From: a virus
Strand: one strand, 5' to 3'
IMG/VR virus record: IMGVR_UViG_3300006734_000026
Span: 1-31,962 of that record
Length of the DNA stretch: 31,962 nucleotides
Each line of letters begins with the position of its first letter. The stretch's first letter is position 1. Under the pieces are notes generated by a model that saw only the letters and a list, made by a program, of their open reading frames with translations, was not told where the DNA came from and did no database searches. Shown one piece after another: positions 2,916 through 31,962 of the stretch. Position numbers and translations under genes: made by a program.

Positions 2916-3160
2916 TGAAGAAAACTATAATACACGTAAATCAACACAAGATAAAACACAATAATAAAACAGGAGATAGAGAACCTGTAATTACATGTAA
3001 AACTTATAATACTAATGAATATGCACATGAAGCAATCATATATGGTCAGGACGGTAAGGAGGCTGCAAAGATTATTTATAGTCCGGATAAACCATTGGGT
3101 TGTGGAGCTAAAGTCTGGATTGAAACAAGAAATGAAGTAAAGGTTATAGTTAATGAGTGA
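2912..3160 (+). CDS. Conserved small beta-rich protein before terminase
   Basis: This 82-residue protein has alternating beta-strand patterns: KTIIHVNQHKIKHN, EPVITCKTYN, HEAIIYGQDG, AAKIIYSPDKPLGCGAKVWIET, then VKVIVNE. The segment YSPDKPLxCGAxVWIET looks like the family signature and I recall similar short proteins in other phages, all uncharacterised. Two consecutive ATGs (2912 and 2915) could start it; the first overlaps the preceding stop. It overlaps the terminase start by 8 bases, implying linked translation. Confidence 0.75.
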   Translation: MMKKTIIHVNQHKIKHNNKTGDREPVITCKTYNTNEYAHEAIIYGQDGKEAAKIIYSPDKPLGCGAKVWIETRNEVKVIVNE

Positions 3161-5360
3161 AATCTATCAAGACATACCAACTTATGAAAATGAAGAATGG
3201 ACAACCACAAGTTTTGAGTCTAGAGAAGACTTTGCTGACTTTATCAAAGAACTTTTTAAAAAACCTGGAGAGTACGGCTTCAATGAATTTACCAATAAAA
3301 TATTTATTGAAGAATCAACTAAATTTAAAACTACTGGGGTATATTGTACAGCTCCCTTTAAATCAAGAGATTTTGTAAAATATTGGGATGATCAAAAAGC
3401 TAAATGTAGAAAGGGAGTTATTATAAAAGACAAAACTAATACGTGGTATCTTGCAAGAGAATACTACATGTGGTTAAACTTCTTACCAATCTTTAACAAA
3501 GAAATTCAGAATTTTGGTTTTGCTGATATTAGAGATGCACAGTATCATATGGCATTATATGAACTATTAGCAGAACTAAATTATAAACATGTTGCAATAC
3601 TTAAGAAACGTCAGATTGCATCATCATATTATCATATGGCTAAACTAATAAATCAACAGTGGTTTGAGCCTGGAGTAACTTTAAAAATAGGAGCTAGCCT
3701 TAAAGATTATATTAACGAAAAAGGATCATGGAAATTCTTAGAAGAATATGCTGCATTCTTAAATGAACATACTGCTTGGTATAGACCCATGTCACCGGAT
3801 AAAATTATGATGTGGCAGCAAAAGATTGAAGTTAGAAAAGGTGATCGTAAAACAGAAGTTGGTCTTAAAGGTACTATACAAGGTATGTCATTTGAGAAAG
3901 ATCCGACAAATGGTGTAGGGGGTCCAGTAAAATTCTTTTTTCACGAGGAGGCAGGGATTGCACCTAAGATGAATAAGACGTATGAGTATATGAGACCTGC
4001 AATGAGATCTGGACTTACTACTACAGGGATGTTTATTGCAGCAGGATCTGTGGGTGATTTGTCACAATGCCTCCCCTTAAAAGAAATGATTCAGAATCCA
4101 ACAGCAAATGATATATATGCTGTAGAAACAGATTTAATAGATGATAAAGGTACTGAAGGTCTATCAGGATTATTTATTCCTGAGCAATGGTCTATGCCTC
4201 CACATATTGATGAATATGGCAACTCTAATGTAGAAGAAGCACTGCAAGCTTTAAATGATCAATTTGAAAAATGGAAAAAAGAACTTCCTCCGGAAGAATA
4301 TCAGTTAAGAATATCTCAGCATCCAAGAAATATAAAAGAAGCTTTTGATCATAGATCAGTATCTGTATTCCCAACTCATTTACTTGCAGCACAAGAAAGA
4401 AGAATTGAAGAAAAAGAATACGGGTATGAGTTCTTAGATATTTATGCAGATGCCGAAGGTAAACCTGCAGTAAAGAAGAGTAACAAACGTCCTATCATGG
4501 AGTTCCCAATTAGAAAAAAGACAGAAGACAAAACAGGTTGTTTAGTTGTCTGGGAAAGACCGGTTAAGAATCCTGAGTTTGCTAAAACTTACTACGCATC
4601 TATTGACCCCGTGTCAGAAGGTAAAACTACTACGTCAGAATCATTATGTTCTATTTACATCATGAAAGCTCCGGTAGAAGTTACTAATGTTAACGGAACA
4701 GAAACAGAAACTTACATAGAGCAGGATAAAATAGTAGCATGTTGGTGTGGAAGATATGATGATATTAATCAAACTCATAAACAGCTAGAATTAATTATTG
4801 AATGGTACAATGCTTGGACACTTGTAGAGAATAACATATCTCTATTTATTCAATATATGATCCATCGTAAAAAACAAAAATACCTTGTACCAAAAGGTCA
4901 AATTATGTTCTTAAAAGATCTTGGTTCTAATAATAACGTCTTTCAGGAGTATGGTTGGAAAAACACCGGAACATTATTTAAGGCCCATCTTCTTAGTTAT
5001 GCCATAGAATATACTAAAGAAGAATTAGATCAAGAAACAAAAACTGATGGAACCGTAGTAAAAACTACATATGGTATTGAAAGAATTCCTGATCCAATGC
5101 TTATTAAAGAAATGAGAGAATATGCAGATGGTGTCAATGTCGATAGATTAGTATCATTTGCAGCATTGGTTGCATTTATGAAAATTCAACATTCTAATAG
5201 AGGATATAACAAAAAAACGGTTATGGATGATGCAGCTAAAAACTTGCAAAAGTCAGAAAATTTGTTTAAATTAAATAGGAATCCGTTTAGACATATGGGT
5301 GGTGGAATAAAGAACACACAAGGTAGAATTAAAAGGTCTGCGTTTAAAAATATTAAATAG
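3153..5360 (+). CDS. terL: Terminase large subunit (ATPase plus nuclease)
   Basis: This 735-residue protein is the packaging motor and headful nuclease. The ATPase part has a P-loop-like segment K151-K-R-Q-I-A-S-S158 that lacks the canonical GK[ST] and resembles the deviant Walker A of some terminases, with Lys placed early. Walker B is K260-F-F-F-H-E265-E266-A, and a motif-III-like AAGSVGD sits at 296-302. The RNase H-like nuclease domain shows D485 in ASIDPVSEG, E559 or E560 region in LVENN, and D664 in NVDRLVSFAALVA, the usual three acidic positions. Length fits crAss-like terminases. It directly precedes the portal gene, as expected for a packaging module. Confidence 0.93.
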   Translation: MSEIYQDIPTYENEEWTTTSFESREDFADFIKELFKKPGEYGFNEFTNKIFIEESTKFKTTGVYCTAPFKSRDFVKYWDDQKAKCRKGVIIKDKTNTWYLAREYYMWLNFLPIFNKEIQNFGFADIRDAQYHMALYELLAELNYKHVAILKKRQIASSYYHMAKLINQQWFEPGVTLKIGASLKDYINEKGSWKFLEEYAAFLNEHTAWYRPMSPDKIMMWQQKIEVRKGDRKTEVGLKGTIQGMSFEKDPTNGVGGPVKFFFHEEAGIAPKMNKTYEYMRPAMRSGLTTTGMFIAAGSVGDLSQCLPLKEMIQNPTANDIYAVETDLIDDKGTEGLSGLFIPEQWSMPPHIDEYGNSNVEEALQALNDQFEKWKKELPPEEYQLRISQHPRNIKEAFDHRSVSVFPTHLLAAQERRIEEKEYGYEFLDIYADAEGKPAVKKSNKRPIMEFPIRKKTEDKTGCLVVWERPVKNPEFAKTYYASIDPVSEGKTTTSESLCSIYIMKAPVEVTNVNGTETETYIEQDKIVACWCGRYDDINQTHKQLELIIEWYNAWTLVENNISLFIQYMIHRKKQKYLVPKGQIMFLKDLGSNNNVFQEYGWKNTGTLFKAHLLSYAIEYTKEELDQETKTDGTVVKTTYGIERIPDPMLIKEMREYADGVNVDRLVSFAALVAFMKIQHSNRGYNKKTVMDDAAKNLQKSENLFKLNRNPFRHMGGGIKNTQGRIKRSAFKNIK

Positions 5361-9507: not shown

Positions 9508-11127
9508 ATGGCAACTCCAGTTTTAAACAATGGTATCTTTCTACGGGATACAGCGTACAACGCAAGTTCACACGTAGACTCTTACCACTTGGTTAACATG
9601 TTGAAGGATGCAGAACCTATGGACCTTGGTCCGGTGGACCTCTGGGCAATGGCACAGAAGGTTGAAATGCCTCTTTACCAAATGTCTAGCTTTGGTGGTA
9701 AAAATGTAATTATGGTTGACAATGCTCGTGGGGAGTATAGATGGCAAACTGCTACTACTAATGACCTTCCTTACATCATTGAAGACATTGAACCAAACAA
9801 TACCTTTAAAGGTACAGATGGATCTACTTTCCGCATCAAATTAAGCAGACGTGAGTTTGGACATGGTGATATTATCACTTATGACAAATATAACGGAGTT
9901 GAGATGTACATTACTGATGAAGATATTCTTCCTGTAGGTGATGGGTTTATCTATACTGTAACGTTGGTTAACAACGACAACTTTAAATTCCTAGATAATA
10001 AATATCTTGAGAATGGTACTAAAGTTTTCCGTAAAGGTTCTGCTCGTGGTGAGTACGGAGAAAGATTCTCTGATATCACTACAAGAACTGGTTTCCGTGA
10101 GTTCTACAACTATGTAGGAGGAGCTGAAGCTCACGTACATTATTCTGTATCTTCTCGTGCAGATCTTATGATCAAAGGAGGAATGAATGCAGATGGTACA
10201 GTTCCAGTAACTGAAATCTGGAGAAGCTTTGACACTGCCAATATGGATCCTTCTATTTCATCACTAGATGATATGGTTAAGGTGATGGGTAAAGACAAAG
10301 TTAAAAAGGCATTTGATAACGGTGACCTTTCTCGTACTTTCCTAACTCAAATGGAAGCAGCTCACTTGTCTAAAGTTGCAAGTGATATTGAATCTTACCT
10401 AATGTGGGGACAAGGAGGTAGACTTCGTCAAGATGGTCCAGATGATCTTCGTCTTTCTGTAGGTCTTTGGAGACAGTTGGATAACTCATTTAAACGTATC
10501 TATAACAAAAATAACTTTACACTTGAGTTGTTCCGTGGAGAAATCTACAACTTCTTTAATGGTAAAGTTGAATTCCAAGGTCCAGATCCAAATAGATCTT
10601 TGATCGTTCAAACTGGTATGGGTGGAATGAGAATGGTAAATGAAGCTATCAAACGTGAAGCTGTTGCTTCAGGTCTAGTAATTCAGGCTGCTGATATTGG
10701 TGCTATCACTGGTAAAGGAATGGACTTGAACTTTGGATTTGCTTATACTTCATATGTAATTCCATTCTTGGCTAACGTTAAGTTTGTACTTAACCCAGCA
10801 TTTGATAATGTTCATACTAATGACATTGAGAACCCAATTATTGACGGATTCCCATTATCATCTTATTCATTCATTATCTTCGACATTACTGATAATACTA
10901 ATGACAACATCTTCTTATTGAAGCTATCTTGGGATAATCAGTTGAAGTGGTGGTATCAGAATGGTACAATGGACTACATGGGACGTACTCAAGGATTCCA
11001 GTCTTCTGGACAATTTAACGGATACCGAGTAATGATGTCTCAAACTATGCCAGCTATTTGGGTAAAAGATCCAACTAAAGTTCTTAAAATTGTAATGAGA
11101 AACCCTGTAACAGGAGGATCATTCTAA
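9508..11127 (+). CDS. Major capsid protein (HK97-type, crAss-like)
   Basis: This 539-residue protein has the N-terminus (residues 1-60, with LNNGIFLRDTAYNASSHVDS) and the C-terminus (AIWVKDPTKVLKIVMRNPVTGG) that I associate with crAss-like major capsid proteins. The position after portal and scaffold, strong codon adaptation and an immediate terminator all fit the most abundant virion protein. By my reading 14 of about 26 Arg codons are CGT or CGC, while neighbouring genes use mainly AGA. The leader is A-rich (ACAAACAAATAAATAAATAA) without a Shine-Dalgarno sequence. The HK97 fold is expected from the family, not seen directly. Confidence 0.87.
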   Translation: MATPVLNNGIFLRDTAYNASSHVDSYHLVNMLKDAEPMDLGPVDLWAMAQKVEMPLYQMSSFGGKNVIMVDNARGEYRWQTATTNDLPYIIEDIEPNNTFKGTDGSTFRIKLSRREFGHGDIITYDKYNGVEMYITDEDILPVGDGFIYTVTLVNNDNFKFLDNKYLENGTKVFRKGSARGEYGERFSDITTRTGFREFYNYVGGAEAHVHYSVSSRADLMIKGGMNADGTVPVTEIWRSFDTANMDPSISSLDDMVKVMGKDKVKKAFDNGDLSRTFLTQMEAAHLSKVASDIESYLMWGQGGRLRQDGPDDLRLSVGLWRQLDNSFKRIYNKNNFTLELFRGEIYNFFNGKVEFQGPDPNRSLIVQTGMGGMRMVNEAIKREAVASGLVIQAADIGAITGKGMDLNFGFAYTSYVIPFLANVKFVLNPAFDNVHTNDIENPIIDGFPLSSYSFIIFDITDNTNDNIFLLKLSWDNQLKWWYQNGTMDYMGRTQGFQSSGQFNGYRVMMSQTMPAIWVKDPTKVLKIVMRNPVTGGSF

Positions 11128-13980: not shown

Positions 13981-14475
13981 ATGAAAGCACCGCAACCAAG
14001 AATGCTTAAAAAGCAAGAAGCTCCAAAAAAAATTGCTAAACCTTCTCCTGAAGCAAAACCAGAACCCACAAAAGACACAGGAGTAGGTGGTAGTTCATTA
14101 GATACTATGATGTCTGCATGTATTACTGAACTTATGAATGCACAGACAAGTTTTCATAAATTGCATTTGAAAGTTACTGGTGAAGGTTCTTATGCTGCAC
14201 ATAAAGCCCTTAATGATTTGTATGATGCTATTCCTGACTTGGCTGATACTTTAGTAGAGGGATATCAAGGGGTAACTGAAAAACTATTGACTTACAAAGA
14301 AGTATCTCCAAGAACACTTGATTCAACAGCAGATGCTATTAATTATTTGAGAGATATCTATGCTATGGTAAATAAATTACAAGGAATGATGCCTTACTCA
14401 GAAATTGTAAATAACCTAGATCTTGTTAAAGATGCTGTCAATTCAGCTAAATATAAATTACTTTTCTTAAAATAA
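13981..14475 (+). CDS. Dps/ferritin-like protein in the structural operon
   Basis: This 164-residue protein has a Pro/Lys-rich flexible N-terminus (1-35) followed by four or five helices. H62, H74, D89 and E93 have gaps of 12, 15 and 4, exactly those of the Dps ferroxidase residues H51, H63, D78 and E82 of E. coli, and a Gly lies five residues after the first His in both. The E. coli D67 position is N78 here. The match covers the helix-loop-helix HLKVTGEGSYAAHKALNDLY and the next turn. Dps proteins oxidise iron and bind DNA as 12-mers, often through a Lys-rich tail as here. In a virion it could be an iron- or oxidant-handling cargo, or a helical-bundle structural protein that kept the motif. 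Confidence 0.72.
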   Translation: MKAPQPRMLKKQEAPKKIAKPSPEAKPEPTKDTGVGGSSLDTMMSACITELMNAQTSFHKLHLKVTGEGSYAAHKALNDLYDAIPDLADTLVEGYQGVTEKLLTYKEVSPRTLDSTADAINYLRDIYAMVNKLQGMMPYSEIVNNLDLVKDAVNSAKYKLLFLK

Positions 14476-14540: not shown

Positions 14541-15878
14541 ATGGCTTATTTTAATCATGCTTTTAAGAAAACCTTTATAGCTACAGAAGGTATTTCTGCA
14601 CTAAATGGTGTACAATTAGGTACATCTCCAACTAATGTGTTGAAATCTGGTCAAATTTCATTTATTGATCCTAAGACATTTCAAGTTTCACCTACACCTG
14701 ATACAAATTGTTGTGAGTTTATTCTTGCAGGTGGAGCTTTAATGCCTAATGACAAAATTGGACCTTTTCACGGTGGATACACTGAATCCAACAAGTCCAA
14801 AACAATTAAGGGCAAGTATGTAAGTAGACTTTACTACTCTCCTGCTAATGCTCCTTCTAACTACGTTATTCACGTAGGATTAACTCCTTGGACAAATGCT
14901 AACCCACCTGCATCAAGTAATCCAGGTGAAACTGAAGGTGAATGTTGTAAACAATTCTTGTGTGATGAGACTTACTATCTTCGTTTAGATGTTAAAGGTT
15001 CTCCTGCTATGAGATACCTTGATCGCAACTCTTACCTTACACTTGAGGCTTACACAGGATGTTGTCCTGATGATGATGTAGCACCAACTCCGGTTGATCC
15101 ACGTAAAGTAATGCTTGCATGGGCAAATCAGCTTTTGGAAAGCACTCTTGTTAATCCATTTGCATTCCCAGTTGTAACATTTACTCAAGATGCTGGTGCA
15201 ACTTGGACTTATTACTATCCAGATACAGTTGATACAACAACACTTCCTGTTATTGCTGGTGTAACTTATGCTAACTTTAGTGATTGGACTGAAGCACCAT
15301 TTGATCCAGCTATGTGTGCAGGACTTGTACTTAGCGGAGCTTATGTTGAAACTAAGTTTGAAAACTGTACATTCCAACCTTCTGACTTCTATGAACTAGA
15401 GCCGGTAAGACTTTATGCTTCTGAAGTAGATCTAACTGGAGATCCTTGTGAATTTAACGGTCTTTGTGTTGGTGTACAATGTTACGGAATTCAAGCAAAT
15501 GGAGTTGGAGAAACTGTAGTACGTGATGTAATTCTTTCTGAAGCTTACAGACAAAACCACCTTGCAACTGATCTACGTATCCGTGAGGTAACTCAAGGTA
15601 ACTCAATTGTTGAAGCTGCAGGAATTAGTAGAAATGGTCTTTATGATCGTATTTATCTACAGCACAATATTCCACGTTTGTATAACCCAACTGGAACGTT
15701 TGATAATGATCAATACTTGTTAGAGATTGTTGTTCCTCAAGGGGATCCAGATGCAGTATTTGATGTTTTGGCAGAATGGTTGACAACCTGTGAATCAGAC
15801 TGTTTAATTGAAGCATTACGAGAACCTGTTGAATGTGGGGTATCTACTCCGGATGTACCACTTCCAGTGTTACCATAA
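14541..15878 (+). CDS. Abundant virion protein candidate (auxiliary capsid type)
   Basis: This 445-residue protein begins MAYFNHAFKKTFIAT, an N-terminus I recognise from phage structural proteins, and is beta-rich with paired Cys (NCCEF, GECCKQFLCDE, GCCPDDD). About 8 of 14 Arg codons are CGT/CGC, the same bias as the capsid gene and unlike the AGA-rich neighbours. It has its own promoter-like site, an A-rich leader (TTAAAACAAAACAAAATG) and an immediate terminator, so it is probably made in large amounts. In crAss-like phages an auxiliary capsid or other major structural protein would fit. The exact place in the virion is inferred. Confidence 0.65.
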   Translation: MAYFNHAFKKTFIATEGISALNGVQLGTSPTNVLKSGQISFIDPKTFQVSPTPDTNCCEFILAGGALMPNDKIGPFHGGYTESNKSKTIKGKYVSRLYYSPANAPSNYVIHVGLTPWTNANPPASSNPGETEGECCKQFLCDETYYLRLDVKGSPAMRYLDRNSYLTLEAYTGCCPDDDVAPTPVDPRKVMLAWANQLLESTLVNPFAFPVVTFTQDAGATWTYYYPDTVDTTTLPVIAGVTYANFSDWTEAPFDPAMCAGLVLSGAYVETKFENCTFQPSDFYELEPVRLYASEVDLTGDPCEFNGLCVGVQCYGIQANGVGETVVRDVILSEAYRQNHLATDLRIREVTQGNSIVEAAGISRNGLYDRIYLQHNIPRLYNPTGTFDNDQYLLEIVVPQGDPDAVFDVLAEWLTTCESDCLIEALREPVECGVSTPDVPLPVLP

Positions 15879-28700: not shown

Positions 28701-31243
28701 ATCAAGACTATTTAGGAAACAATAAATCTTTTATTATTAATAATTTAAAACGATCAGATACTGTTGTATTAAGAACTAAATCAGGCCCTTACTTTAATGC
28801 TACATATCCTGATGGAGTTAACGTAGGTCCTAATTTAATTACTTCCGGAACTCAAGATAAATCACTTGTTACATTAGGAACTATAGATCAAAACAGTTCA
28901 AACTCTGCATTTTTGTCTACAAATGGATTACCAGGCTTTGATGAAGATAATCAAGATTTACCATTTAGCTTAACTATAGCAAGTCATTATGGTGGTATAA
29001 AAGGTAGAGTTAGAAATCAATATGGTCAAATATCAAGTGAATTCCAAATTCCAGTAACTCCTTGTGAACAAAAACTTACTGATTATAATACTCCTGTAAC
29101 TACTTGGAACTGTCCTATTGATTCTGTAGAATATTATTTTAGGCAAATAAGACGCTCACCAATTATCTTTGGAGGAGACACCTATATAAATAGATATACT
29201 GAAAAGAATAACATGTTGTTCTTTAATGATTGGCTTTATGGTCAACCTAACGGTTTTGAATATAACTATTATCTACATAGTATGATTCCTAATCCAAGAT
29301 TTAGGGTTAATAGTATTAACTATGATGTAACATTTTTAGGTGAACTATTTGACTTTAGTGCTCCAGCAATTCCTGGAACAGGAGCCTTTCCAAGAGCTTT
29401 TTATCAAGTAGATCATGATGATTATAATTATGAAAATGATAACTTAGGAAACCCTCCAGGATTTTTTAGTGTAAAAAAATCTAAATTCTATTTAGCTAAT
29501 TCTAGTGTTAGAGATTTCTTTGTTGAATCTGAAGTTCTAGTAGACTTTAGAAAACAATCAGAACGGATTGCAAGCAAACATTATGATCCTTATAGATATA
29601 CTGATATTACAGCAATGTTTGATATGAACCCTGAGGTTATAGGTAATCCTGTAGCATATCTTTATGATTACTCATTAAGTGTATCTAAATTATTTAATCA
29701 GTATTTTTCTTTAGGATCTACTCAAAATAGGTATTATGACCCTGAGGTAGCAGAATTATGCTACACTTATTATCCGGATAGAATTATATATTCTTTACCT
29801 CAACAAGATGAAGCTATTAAAGACAGTTGGTTTATCTATTTAGTTAATAACTATAAAGAGTTTCAAGCACAGATATCAGGGGTTAAAGCAATTAATAAAA
29901 GTGGTATATTCATTACTTTTAAAAACGCATCTCCACTAATGTACCAAGGAGTTGATACGTTAGAAACTGACCTAAATACTAAAATTACTATAGGGGATGG
30001 GGGGTTATTTAACCAGCCTCAACAATCTATTACTAACGCTGATAAGTCTTTTGAATACGGATCTTCACAAAATAGACTTTCTGTAATATCAACACCTGCT
30101 GGTATTTACTATATGTCCCAAAATCAAGGACGTGTATTTAGTTATGCAAACGGTCTTCAAGAGATATCACAAGCAGGAATGAAATGGTGGTTCCTTTTAT
30201 ATTTACCATATAGATTGATCCAAGATTTTCCGGATTACCCTTATCTAGATAACCCAGTAGCAGGTATTGGTTGCCAATCAACTTATGACAGCTCTAGTTC
30301 CGTATTATACTTTTGTAAGAAAGATTACTATTTGAAAGATGAGTTTAAAGGAAGAGTAAAATATATACCTGTAGATAGTGACGGTACTGGTGACTATTTT
30401 GAATTAGATGGTAGGAAAAATGCTATTTATAAATTAGGTGATCCATACTTATTTGAAGATGCCTCTTGGACGGTAAGTTATGATCCTAAAACTGAATTTT
30501 GGATTAGTTTTCATGATTGGCATCCTGATTTACTATTACCTACTAAAGATATATTCTTAAGTACTAAGGAAAACACAGTATGGAAACATAATCTTATATG
30601 TGATAGTTTCTGTAATTTTTATGGAGATCAGCATGGATGTGAAATAGAATTTCCTATAGTAACAGGTCAAAATGTAATGACCACTAGATCAATGGAGTAT
30701 ATACTTGAATGTTATAGAAGACGTTCTGGAAACTGTGTGGATCAGCATCATGTTCTTGATTATAACTTTGATACAGCTATAGTATATAACTCAGAGCAAG
30801 TATCAGGATATCTAAACTTAAATTTATATCCTAAGAATGATATTAATCTTTCGTTGCAATATCCTAAGTTAAATGGAAATTTAGCCTCATATGACATTCT
30901 ATATTCTAAAGAAGAGCAGAAATATAGATTTAATCAATTCTGGGATATTACCAGTAATAGAGCTGAATTCCCAACAGGATCTAATTATCCTCCAACAGGA
31001 CCATTAGTACCTGGCACAACAATTTTACAAGGTAATTATGCTTCAGAAAATACTTGGGTTACATCTCAAGATGGGCATACAAGAATTTTAAATCCTAATA
31101 ATATGGATTATAATAAACCTGAATTAGAAAGAAAAAAATTCAGACATTACTTGAATTTCTTAAATTTAAGAAAAGAACAGTGTGATGATGTAAACATGAT
31201 TATAAAACTGAGCAATAGTAAAAATCAATATTCTCCTAGATAA
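25718..31243 (+). CDS. Very large tail muzzle/stabilisation protein
   Basis: This 1841-residue protein starts with SQVITNSFTKGLNKDSDPSF and EGMWTHAINIVNNTKEGDVS, the signature I associate with crAss-like tail stabilisation (muzzle) proteins, counterparts of P22 gp10. Beta-propeller-like strand patterns follow. Residues 755-774 (AAVAIMIIGGVAEAIISLIG) form a hydrophobic segment, followed by a Gly-rich stretch at 791-826, unusual for a soluble barrel protein. The C-terminal half includes YDSSSSVLYFCKKDYYLKDE and FDNGK-like modules, ending LSNSKNQYSPR. It would close the tail barrel and open at infection. Its TAA overlaps the SET gene start. Confidence 0.85.
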   Translation: MAKQRKKQKPGLQNTSQVITNSFTKGLNKDSDPSFVSEGMWTHAINIVNNTKEGDVSTLSNEASNYLCATAGSTMPSTVAEKYIIGAIYLYSDKWVIFTAGHDNQGKRISSEIGLLEEDACRYREIVQDPCLNFDKRQLISGASREKEDCTWQVYWADGFNPDRYLNVGDPKTWPSKDYTWLGQADLNYYFNGNNKILWPGVQWNEEEETIDDCDFVEQVNSLNCDHIRLARLMETPCLTLKLGQSGGTLANGTYFALIAYSIKGQKVTDYFSQSNFQFIYTPNDFQGSLTLDLELDSENFDEYQLVLVSAVNQQTVATQFGYYSTKTTTIEIDQVNPSLPAVPIEQLPIQTPVFETSDQMTDVNGYLLRVGPRSKFDFNYQPLANLIKTRWASVEYPANYYMKGGNKTNYLRDEVYSFYIRWVYDTGDKSSSYHIPGRAPRNFNIPGGPTVFEADEVNDDDALALDDKVFEIYNTASQLPYPTDLPNATLNANGQWVLEDGGVLLAVGDMGYWQSTEEYPDDRPDIWNSSSYCWTGPSAQIPSGGTSGAFDLCGKKVRHHKFPEGFLNNSNSTDALHFRPTPNIATAGNDLFIRLMGVMFENITTPKDQFGNDIPGIAGYEILRGSREGNKTIIAKGMINNMRTFKLRGADNSTGLYPNYPFNTIKPIGFEPTDNTLHNYLYNDPYIKNVDSNDEVVNQDIPTDIFTFHSPDTMFRTPFLATTEFKAYGTLNGYATMNFQEPSEHPKWKLLSDAAVAIMIIGGVAEAIISLIGKRTLNAPEIPGYTEQYRGVGGAGPINLSWSPTGVGTIVDVGGVGTTAPGAGGRIVNANLQNTALNSIAGGVTTYNNFLNNYYSSGQALADALIVLFAGYENTQVALAEDTLRGVINTAANNAGLPKQLALQGSIELPDFAYLDPVTRSLGGLNQVAFYFSEGADVTLKLLYLMIPFRQYALQQISHGYYGNMVKISNANLKRFKIDDSFYIRDNIQDVPKYQDYLGNNKSFIINNLKRSDTVVLRTKSGPYFNATYPDGVNVGPNLITSGTQDKSLVTLGTIDQNSSNSAFLSTNGLPGFDEDNQDLPFSLTIASHYGGIKGRVRNQYGQISSEFQIPVTPCEQKLTDYNTPVTTWNCPIDSVEYYFRQIRRSPIIFGGDTYINRYTEKNNMLFFNDWLYGQPNGFEYNYYLHSMIPNPRFRVNSINYDVTFLGELFDFSAPAIPGTGAFPRAFYQVDHDDYNYENDNLGNPPGFFSVKKSKFYLANSSVRDFFVESEVLVDFRKQSERIASKHYDPYRYTDITAMFDMNPEVIGNPVAYLYDYSLSVSKLFNQYFSLGSTQNRYYDPEVAELCYTYYPDRIIYSLPQQDEAIKDSWFIYLVNNYKEFQAQISGVKAINKSGIFITFKNASPLMYQGVDTLETDLNTKITIGDGGLFNQPQQSITNADKSFEYGSSQNRLSVISTPAGIYYMSQNQGRVFSYANGLQEISQAGMKWWFLLYLPYRLIQDFPDYPYLDNPVAGIGCQSTYDSSSSVLYFCKKDYYLKDEFKGRVKYIPVDSDGTGDYFELDGRKNAIYKLGDPYLFEDASWTVSYDPKTEFWISFHDWHPDLLLPTKDIFLSTKENTVWKHNLICDSFCNFYGDQHGCEIEFPIVTGQNVMTTRSMEYILECYRRRSGNCVDQHHVLDYNFDTAIVYNSEQVSGYLNLNLYPKNDINLSLQYPKLNGNLASYDILYSKEEQKYRFNQFWDITSNRAEFPTGSNYPPTGPLVPGTTILQGNYASENTWVTSQDGHTRILNPNNMDYNKPELERKKFRHYLNFLNLRKEQCDDVNMIIKLSNSKNQYSPR

Positions 31244-31962
31244 TGTACAATAAAAAAGTTCTTACAGAAGCTACGAGGAATCTTAACAAGGTCAAAGTAC
31301 GTGTTAAGAAAAGACCGCCTGCAAATCAAGATAATATTATTTCATCTAGATCAGGGTTAGATGCATTTGTATATCCTACTATAGATAATACACCTTTAAT
31401 GAAAGAAGGTGGGGAAAAGCAATTTGTAAATTCTAAAGAACATGGAGTTGATGCTCCTGAATATTTTCAAGTACAGACAGGAGAATCACCAATTCACGGA
31501 ACAGGGGTATTTACTAACGAAGTAATCCCGGCTGGTTCATTAATAGGTGTAACTCATATTAGAAAAACTTTTGAGCAAAACGGCAATACTTATAAAGCTC
31601 CTTTTCCTGCAAAAGTATTAGGTGGATACAATCACAGTGAAAATCCAAATGTTACTGAGATAGATAATGGTGATCATATTGTAATGGTGGCTCTTAGAGA
31701 TATAGAACCTGGAGAAGAGTTAGTATCTAACTACAACAATAATACTATTGAAGATCTGGAAAAACCAGAAGACTTTAAAAATGAGTTGGCTAAAGCTAAT
31801 ATGGGTTTAATAACAAAAGGTGTAAAACCTGTATTAAAGCTAGCTACTCATAAAAACCCTGCAAAAAGATTTATTGGTCAAAGATTGGCGGATGTAGGAG
31901 TAACAACACTCCCCCTTATGTTTCCTGATCAATTAAGAGATTTAGGAATACGAGCTGGTCAC
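31243..31962 (+). CDS. SET-domain protein, probable lysine methyltransferase (3' end cut by window)
   Basis: The frame opens at ATG 31243 inside the muzzle stop (TAATG) and runs 240 codons to the window edge without a stop. SET motifs are in order: H85-G-T-G88-V-F at the domain start, N130-H-S-E-N-P-N136, and D153-I-E-P-G-E-E-L with Y164 at the place of the catalytic Tyr. SET enzymes transfer methyl groups from S-adenosylmethionine to protein lysine. After residue 170 the protein continues into a helical basic part (ATHKNPAKRFIGQRLADVGV) of unknown role. Substrate is unknown; as the next cistron after muzzle it may modify virion proteins or be delivered with them. Confidence 0.82.
   Translation, partial: MYNKKVLTEATRNLNKVKVRVKKRPPANQDNIISSRSGLDAFVYPTIDNTPLMKEGGEKQFVNSKEHGVDAPEYFQVQTGESPIHGTGVFTNEVIPAGSLIGVTHIRKTFEQNGNTYKAPFPAKVLGGYNHSENPNVTEIDNGDHIVMVALRDIEPGEELVSNYNNNTIEDLEKPEDFKNELAKANMGLITKGVKPVLKLATHKNPAKRFIGQRLADVGVTTLPLMFPDQLRDLGIRAGH

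Follow-up and report, generated by a model that had tools for sequence, protein, structure and literature searches.

The protein of 164 amino acids encoded at positions 13,981 to 14,475 of the stretch of viral DNA analyzed here (the window, all 31,962 nucleotides of IMG/VR virus record IMGVR_UViG_3300006734_000026) is, as judged from its sequence and predicted structure, a true relative of Dps with intact site A residues. It belongs to DUF5856, a Pfam family with no function assigned to it, which we judge to be a genuine phage offshoot of the Dps kind, old and well conserved, and which includes the T4 protein rI.-1. At a probability of about 0.6, and on the strength of sequence, structural models, and analogy with Dps, we favor the reading that it is a phage-specialized Dps derivative that would bind and oxidize Fe(II), be made late, and act in the infected cell.

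A Conserved Gene in a Structural Operon

The features to which the text refers are listed below; all lie on the plus strand.

9508..11127, +, Crassvirus major capsid protein (PF23898), which identifies the phage group
13277..13975, +, upstream tail-ring protein, a homologue of crAss ring 3/4 (PHROG_29507, E 1.5e-12; PF25710, E 1.5e-4, below the cut-off of that model)
13981..14475, +, DUF5856/Dps-like protein, 164 aa, ATG start (PF19174, PHROG_858, 80 close relatives)
13981..14094, +, N-terminal Pro/Lys-rich tail, residues 1-38, predicted to be disordered (low pLDDT), net charge +5
14095..14472, +, predicted ferritin-like four-helix core, residues 39-164 (AlphaFold model, Dps matches)
14155..14157, +, H59, invariant in DUF5856; His also in HP-NAP and MrgA (LHxxHW)
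14164..14166, +, H62, aligned with E. coli Dps H51
14200..14202, +, H74, aligned with E. coli Dps H63
14212..14214, +, N78, where Dps has its fifth ligand, D67; not conserved
14245..14247, +, D89, aligned with E. coli Dps D78
14257..14259, +, E93, aligned with E. coli Dps E82
14541..15878, +, downstream gene with no family match; a homologue lies downstream in 78 of 81 loci

With an E value of 1.7e-30 (106 bits against a cut-off of 27), the capsid protein fits the Crassvirus capsid model PF23898, and by this sequence evidence the window comes from a crAss-like phage. The open reading frame at 13981-14475 is a genuine, conserved gene. It starts 5 bases 3' of the tail-ring gene. Of 81 related loci, 80 have a ring gene ahead of the DUF5856 gene, in most cases no more than 10 bases away. 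For codon usage like that of the major capsid protein, the downstream gene scores second highest in the window (0.750) and the DUF5856 gene third (0.748). This agrees with the preliminary description, made from the letters and open reading frames, which placed the gene between a connector and the second most codon-adapted gene; the connector is the tail-ring homologue. The invariant operon position and the codon usage also support its suggestion that the protein would be expressed with virion parts.

A comparable arrangement is found in the podovirus branch of the family, where the DUF5856 gene directly follows the gene for a T7-type portal (head–tail adaptor) in 16 of 17 loci. The structural-operon position is recurrent and not universal, since members of the family are also found near rI in T4-like phages and near the primase gene in Vi01, and the distant relative gp7 of crAss001 is encoded within an array of tRNA genes near HU. 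A bacterial origin of the gene was considered and rejected: the sole genome match, a contig from a Sphingomonadaceae MAG bin (RFPL01000035.1, record L091, 7912 bases), carries the phage's own gene neighborhood, with the ring gene, the DUF5856 gene, and the flanking genes of the same phage, and is a phage contig within a bacterial bin. At the end of the window, positions 31243-31962 encode a SET-domain protein (PF00856, E 3e-11), which is unexpected in a phage.

Relationship of DUF5856 to Dps

The protein matches Pfam DUF5856 (PF19174) at 59.2 bits (E 9e-16), above the curated cut-off of 34.6 bits. It also matches PHROG_858 (E 6e-23), whose label, "starvation-inducible transcriptional regulator," hints that others saw the link to Dps. 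Its relatives comprise 80 close environmental virus contigs, T4-like phages, Vi01-like phages, and small podoviruses.

The preliminary description drew attention to H62, H74, D89, and E93, which are separated by 12, 15, and 4 residues as in E. coli Dps, and all four are found in the translation. The pattern H-x11-H-x14-D-x3-E occurs once across all open reading frames of the window. Shuffled controls also contained it, 43 of 5000 for the window and 16 of 100,000 for the protein itself, so the spacing by itself is suggestive and not decisive. It is conservation that leads us to judge the motif real. Across 24 diverse DUF5856 representatives (less than 70% identity), ten columns show no variation (H59, H62, S70, H74, A76, D89, E93, G97, L160, and L163), and these include the four residues whose conservation in homologues had been proposed as a check. 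When the 24 proteins were aligned with crAss001 gp7, a cr106_1 relative, and 12 classical Dps proteins, by an aligner blind to the ligands, H62, H74, D89, and E93 were the sole invariant columns among the 38. Within the crAss-like clade both synonymous codons are used at the three His residues and at E93, and constraint therefore acts on the protein.

A fixed spacing of 12 residues between the His ligands does not hold as a rule of the family, for the T4-type members lack three loop residues. The Gly five residues after the first ligand His, the other likeness to Dps that had been pointed out, is present in the protein studied here (G67, after H62) but is gone in the T4-type members. A third large environmental group of DUF5856 proteins (records L124-L203) is compact, at about 120 aa, with the signature MIEQLISRVF..HW; these proteins retain the Dps Trp, and their neighboring genes vary.

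Because direct searches of the protein against Pfam and NCBIfam gave no ferritin or Dps family match (PF00210, NCBI Dps model), profiles were required to make the link. Single-sequence searches of the PDB yielded weak Dps matches for the protein (E 0.069) and no Dps match for T4 rI.-1. Matches were still weak with a profile of 16 close DUF5856 members (HP-NAP, E 0.0018). With a profile of 25 diverse members, HP-NAP was found at E 1e-7 along with dozens of other Dps chains, and nearly all of the matches were Dps; this is the outcome of the profile search against Dps and ferritin families that the preliminary description had recommended. Comparison of a DUF5856 profile with one of 13 Dps proteins gave a probability of 96.8 and an E value of 3.2e-10 over 152 columns, with the four ligands aligned and no gaps between them. 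One member of the crAss clade matches PF00210 Ferritin directly, at an E value (4.8e-5) that falls below the cut-off.

In a tree, which is tentative because the sequences are short, DUF5856 groups with the crAss "DpsA" proteins in a single branch among Dps (support 0.96); the clade of the window joins the podovirus members (0.88), and crAss001 gp7 sits on a separate deep branch. No second, classical Dps was detected in 18 related contigs of the same phages, some of them incomplete.

In the AlphaFold model of the protein (mean pLDDT 79.5), four helices form a bundle and helix B is followed by a short additional one; the core is confident and the tail disordered. The core helices span residues 40-64, 70-94, 96-103, 116-136, and 142-161. 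In Foldseek the top ranks go to Dps and related dodecameric ferritins, at modest E values (0.005 at best). Aligned with VIA-align, the model matches MsDps2 with a Z of 15.7 (rmsd 2.4 Å over 128 residues) and other ferritin-superfamily proteins with Z values of about 14-15, scores that are inflated for helical bundles, which readily match one another. With the Z values so nearly equal, the fold assigns the protein to the superfamily, and the ligands assign it to Dps. The model of T4 rI.-1 (pLDDT 90.8) is a confident ferritin-like fold that carries all four Dps ligands; its best match is likewise MsDps2 (Z 13.7, rmsd 2.4 Å, 117 residues), which leads other ferritin-superfamily proteins by no more than one Z unit. 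The helical fold that was expected from the sequence is thus borne out by prediction, with Dps as the best match. Fold, profiles, and phylogeny together back the relationship to Dps and the ferroxidase-type residues, and derivation from Dps is supported.

Among viral models in BFVD, giant-virus proteins from Pithovirus LCPAC404 (A0A481ZC29) and Fadolivirus (A0A7D3V608) also match the fold, with TM-scores near 0.8 for the target. Long proteins of uncultured phages named "Prohead protease" and ParB/Sulfiredoxin match as well and are possibly fusions with Dps-like domains.

Proposed Role and Competing Readings

In the mechanism we propose, the protein would fold as a ferritin-like four-helix bundle, with H62 on predicted helix A and H74, D89, and E93 on helix B. 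By analogy with Dps structures, the protein would assemble into a dimer or cage of the Dps type, in which two subunits would pair such that the His of one and the acidic residues of the other make up a metal site. The site A ligands (H62, D89, and E93) appear complete, and site B would lack its usual fifth ligand. Ferrous iron would be bound and oxidized, presumably with less Fenton damage as a result. The operon position and codon usage suggest synthesis late, alongside the head and tail proteins. Action would most likely take place in the infected cell during genome replication and packaging, so that phage DNA would be protected. There is a minority chance, one to be taken seriously, that the protein also enters the virion. 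A bolder extension, which we consider distinctly unlikely, is that mini-ferritins of the kind spread from T4 to crAss-like phages ride in the virions of some lineages (those with the gene beside that for the tail ring or portal), are injected with the genome, and scavenge iron as the DNA enters; if this were true, a virion-borne mini-ferritin would be an injected antioxidant for phage DNA.

A role as a virion component is unlikely but has to be reckoned with. The protein would then be a Dps-derived bundle packaged in head or tail, either cargo that enters with the DNA or a structural piece at the junction of the tail ring or portal, its metal site holding iron or zinc for stability. The locking of the gene beside the ring gene, its place beside the portal gene in another branch, and codon usage close to that of the capsid protein all fit this reading, and cargo proteins are known from both the capsid and the tail of crassviruses (PMC10172136). 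A position in a late operon is no proof of incorporation, however, and the protein is not a core virion part, since in Fpv3 and phi17:2, which are more distant phages, the ring gene is present and no DUF5856 match was obtained. Neither Dps nor crAss001 gp7 is mentioned in the main texts of the virion mass spectrometry and cryo-EM papers searched, although this silence in main texts is weak evidence, given that gp7 is a distant relative from a different genome location. It is improbable that the protein is instead a cytoplasmic regulator of lysis timing or signaling, with a metal site that senses redox or iron state and does not store. This idea draws on T4, where rI.-1 adjoins rI and its overexpression slightly prolongs lysis inhibition (PMC6832632), and on the member in MW202655, which lies between a gene for a predicted lipoprotein or spanin-like protein and a lysozyme gene. 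The T4 effect is small and comes from overexpression, and RaK2 has a relative of rI.-1 yet is without a holin/antiholin system (PMC3622015). The crAss-like members, moreover, sit beside ring and capsid genes, away from lysis genes.

The tail was likened in the preliminary description to the DNA-binding tails of Dps, and some Dps proteins do bind DNA through basic tails. A helper in DNA condensation or packaging that acts through such a tail, with the iron site secondary, is very improbable here. The tail carries a net charge of +5 against -4 for the core, and an LKR-type motif is found in the tails of most members of the crAss clade. Tail charge varies from -2 to +5 within the clade, however, which leaves the resemblance weak; other DUF5856 groups have short tails or none, and it is the metal ligands, not the tail, that are invariant. 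That an unrelated helical bundle bears the motif by chance is extremely improbable. The weak match of the single protein in the PDB and the ease with which helical bundles match one another would allow it, but the four invariant columns shared with Dps across 38 proteins and the strength of both the profile and the profile–profile matches, nearly all of the former to Dps, stand against it. The Dps derivative acting on iron in the infected cell remains the reading we prefer.

Comparison with T4 rI.-1 and Other Dps Proteins

T4 rI.-1 matches PF19174 with an E value of 5e-33. It is encoded, with the four Dps ligands present, at positions 2938-3324 of T4 record L082, where it is labeled MobD.6; the name rI.-1 is used in RB51 and in the PHA02604 domain note. 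Members of DUF5856 and PHROG_858, rI.-1 included, share the invariant H, H, S, H, A, D, and E with the protein studied here. T4 rI.-1 lacks the N-terminal Pro/Lys tail, its A–B loop is three residues shorter, and its gene sits in the rI/tk region and not in a structural operon. In the literature searched it is discussed solely for lysis inhibition (PMC6832632, PMC3622015), and no link to iron was found for it. DUF5856 and rI.-1, which has had only a vague lysis-inhibition phenotype, gain a testable biochemical role, and the handling of iron or oxidants is tied to the late structural program of environmental crAss-like phages. Because T4 has a member of the family, phage iron handling becomes testable in a standard laboratory system.

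The supposition that no role had been described for such a protein among these phages still stands, but the name is not new, as crAss001 gp7 and the cr106_1 protein were already annotated "putative DpsA." These two match PF19174 with E values of 3e-5 and 4e-7, both below the cut-off. They belong to the same phage order and have the same four ligands, but unlike the protein of the window they keep the Trp and the fifth-ligand Asp, and gp7 lies outside the structural block.

Dps has been reported in Gratiaviridae and 36 other gut phage genomes (PMC8008677), in Lactobacillus phages (PMC6669764), and in a Campylobacter phage (PMC2853527), and has been proposed to aid the host under oxidative stress (PMC8008677, PMC6669764). 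The Dps proteins of Gratiaviridae and of Lactobacillus, Campylobacter, and Streptomyces phages have the same four ligands. Those of CP20, GAP52, and Gilson match PF00210, unlike the protein studied here, and lie outside the structural genes where the neighborhood could be seen. DUF5856 is not named in the literature searched, and no description of a connection between DUF5856, Dps, and rI.-1 was found there (a body of literature to which most subscription papers do not belong). Dps-like phage proteins were already known; what we found undescribed are this connection and the fixed position, an unusual one, in the structural operon.

Compared with classical Dps (E. coli Dps, HP-NAP, and MrgA; PF00210), the protein has the predicted fold and the four metal ligands at matching positions, and H59 lines up with the initial His of the LHxxHW form found in HP-NAP and MrgA. 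The departures lie around this core. The position of the fifth ligand, D67, is occupied by N78 here and by N, G, or E across DUF5856. Trp52, which follows the first ligand His in Dps, is replaced by Leu (L63) here and by Phe in T4 and is kept in one environmental DUF5856 branch. The Arg that follows E82 in Dps is missing after E93, and the B–C region is longer in Dps. NpDps4 has Asn at position 67 and still oxidizes Fe(II) with O2 (PMC6675082), so loss of the fifth ligand is compatible with activity, although the comparison is inexact because NpDps4 carries additional His ligands (PMC6675082). Taken from sequence and model, the comparison indicates that this is a Dps-derived DUF5856 protein that probably works like a Dps while standing outside Dps proper.
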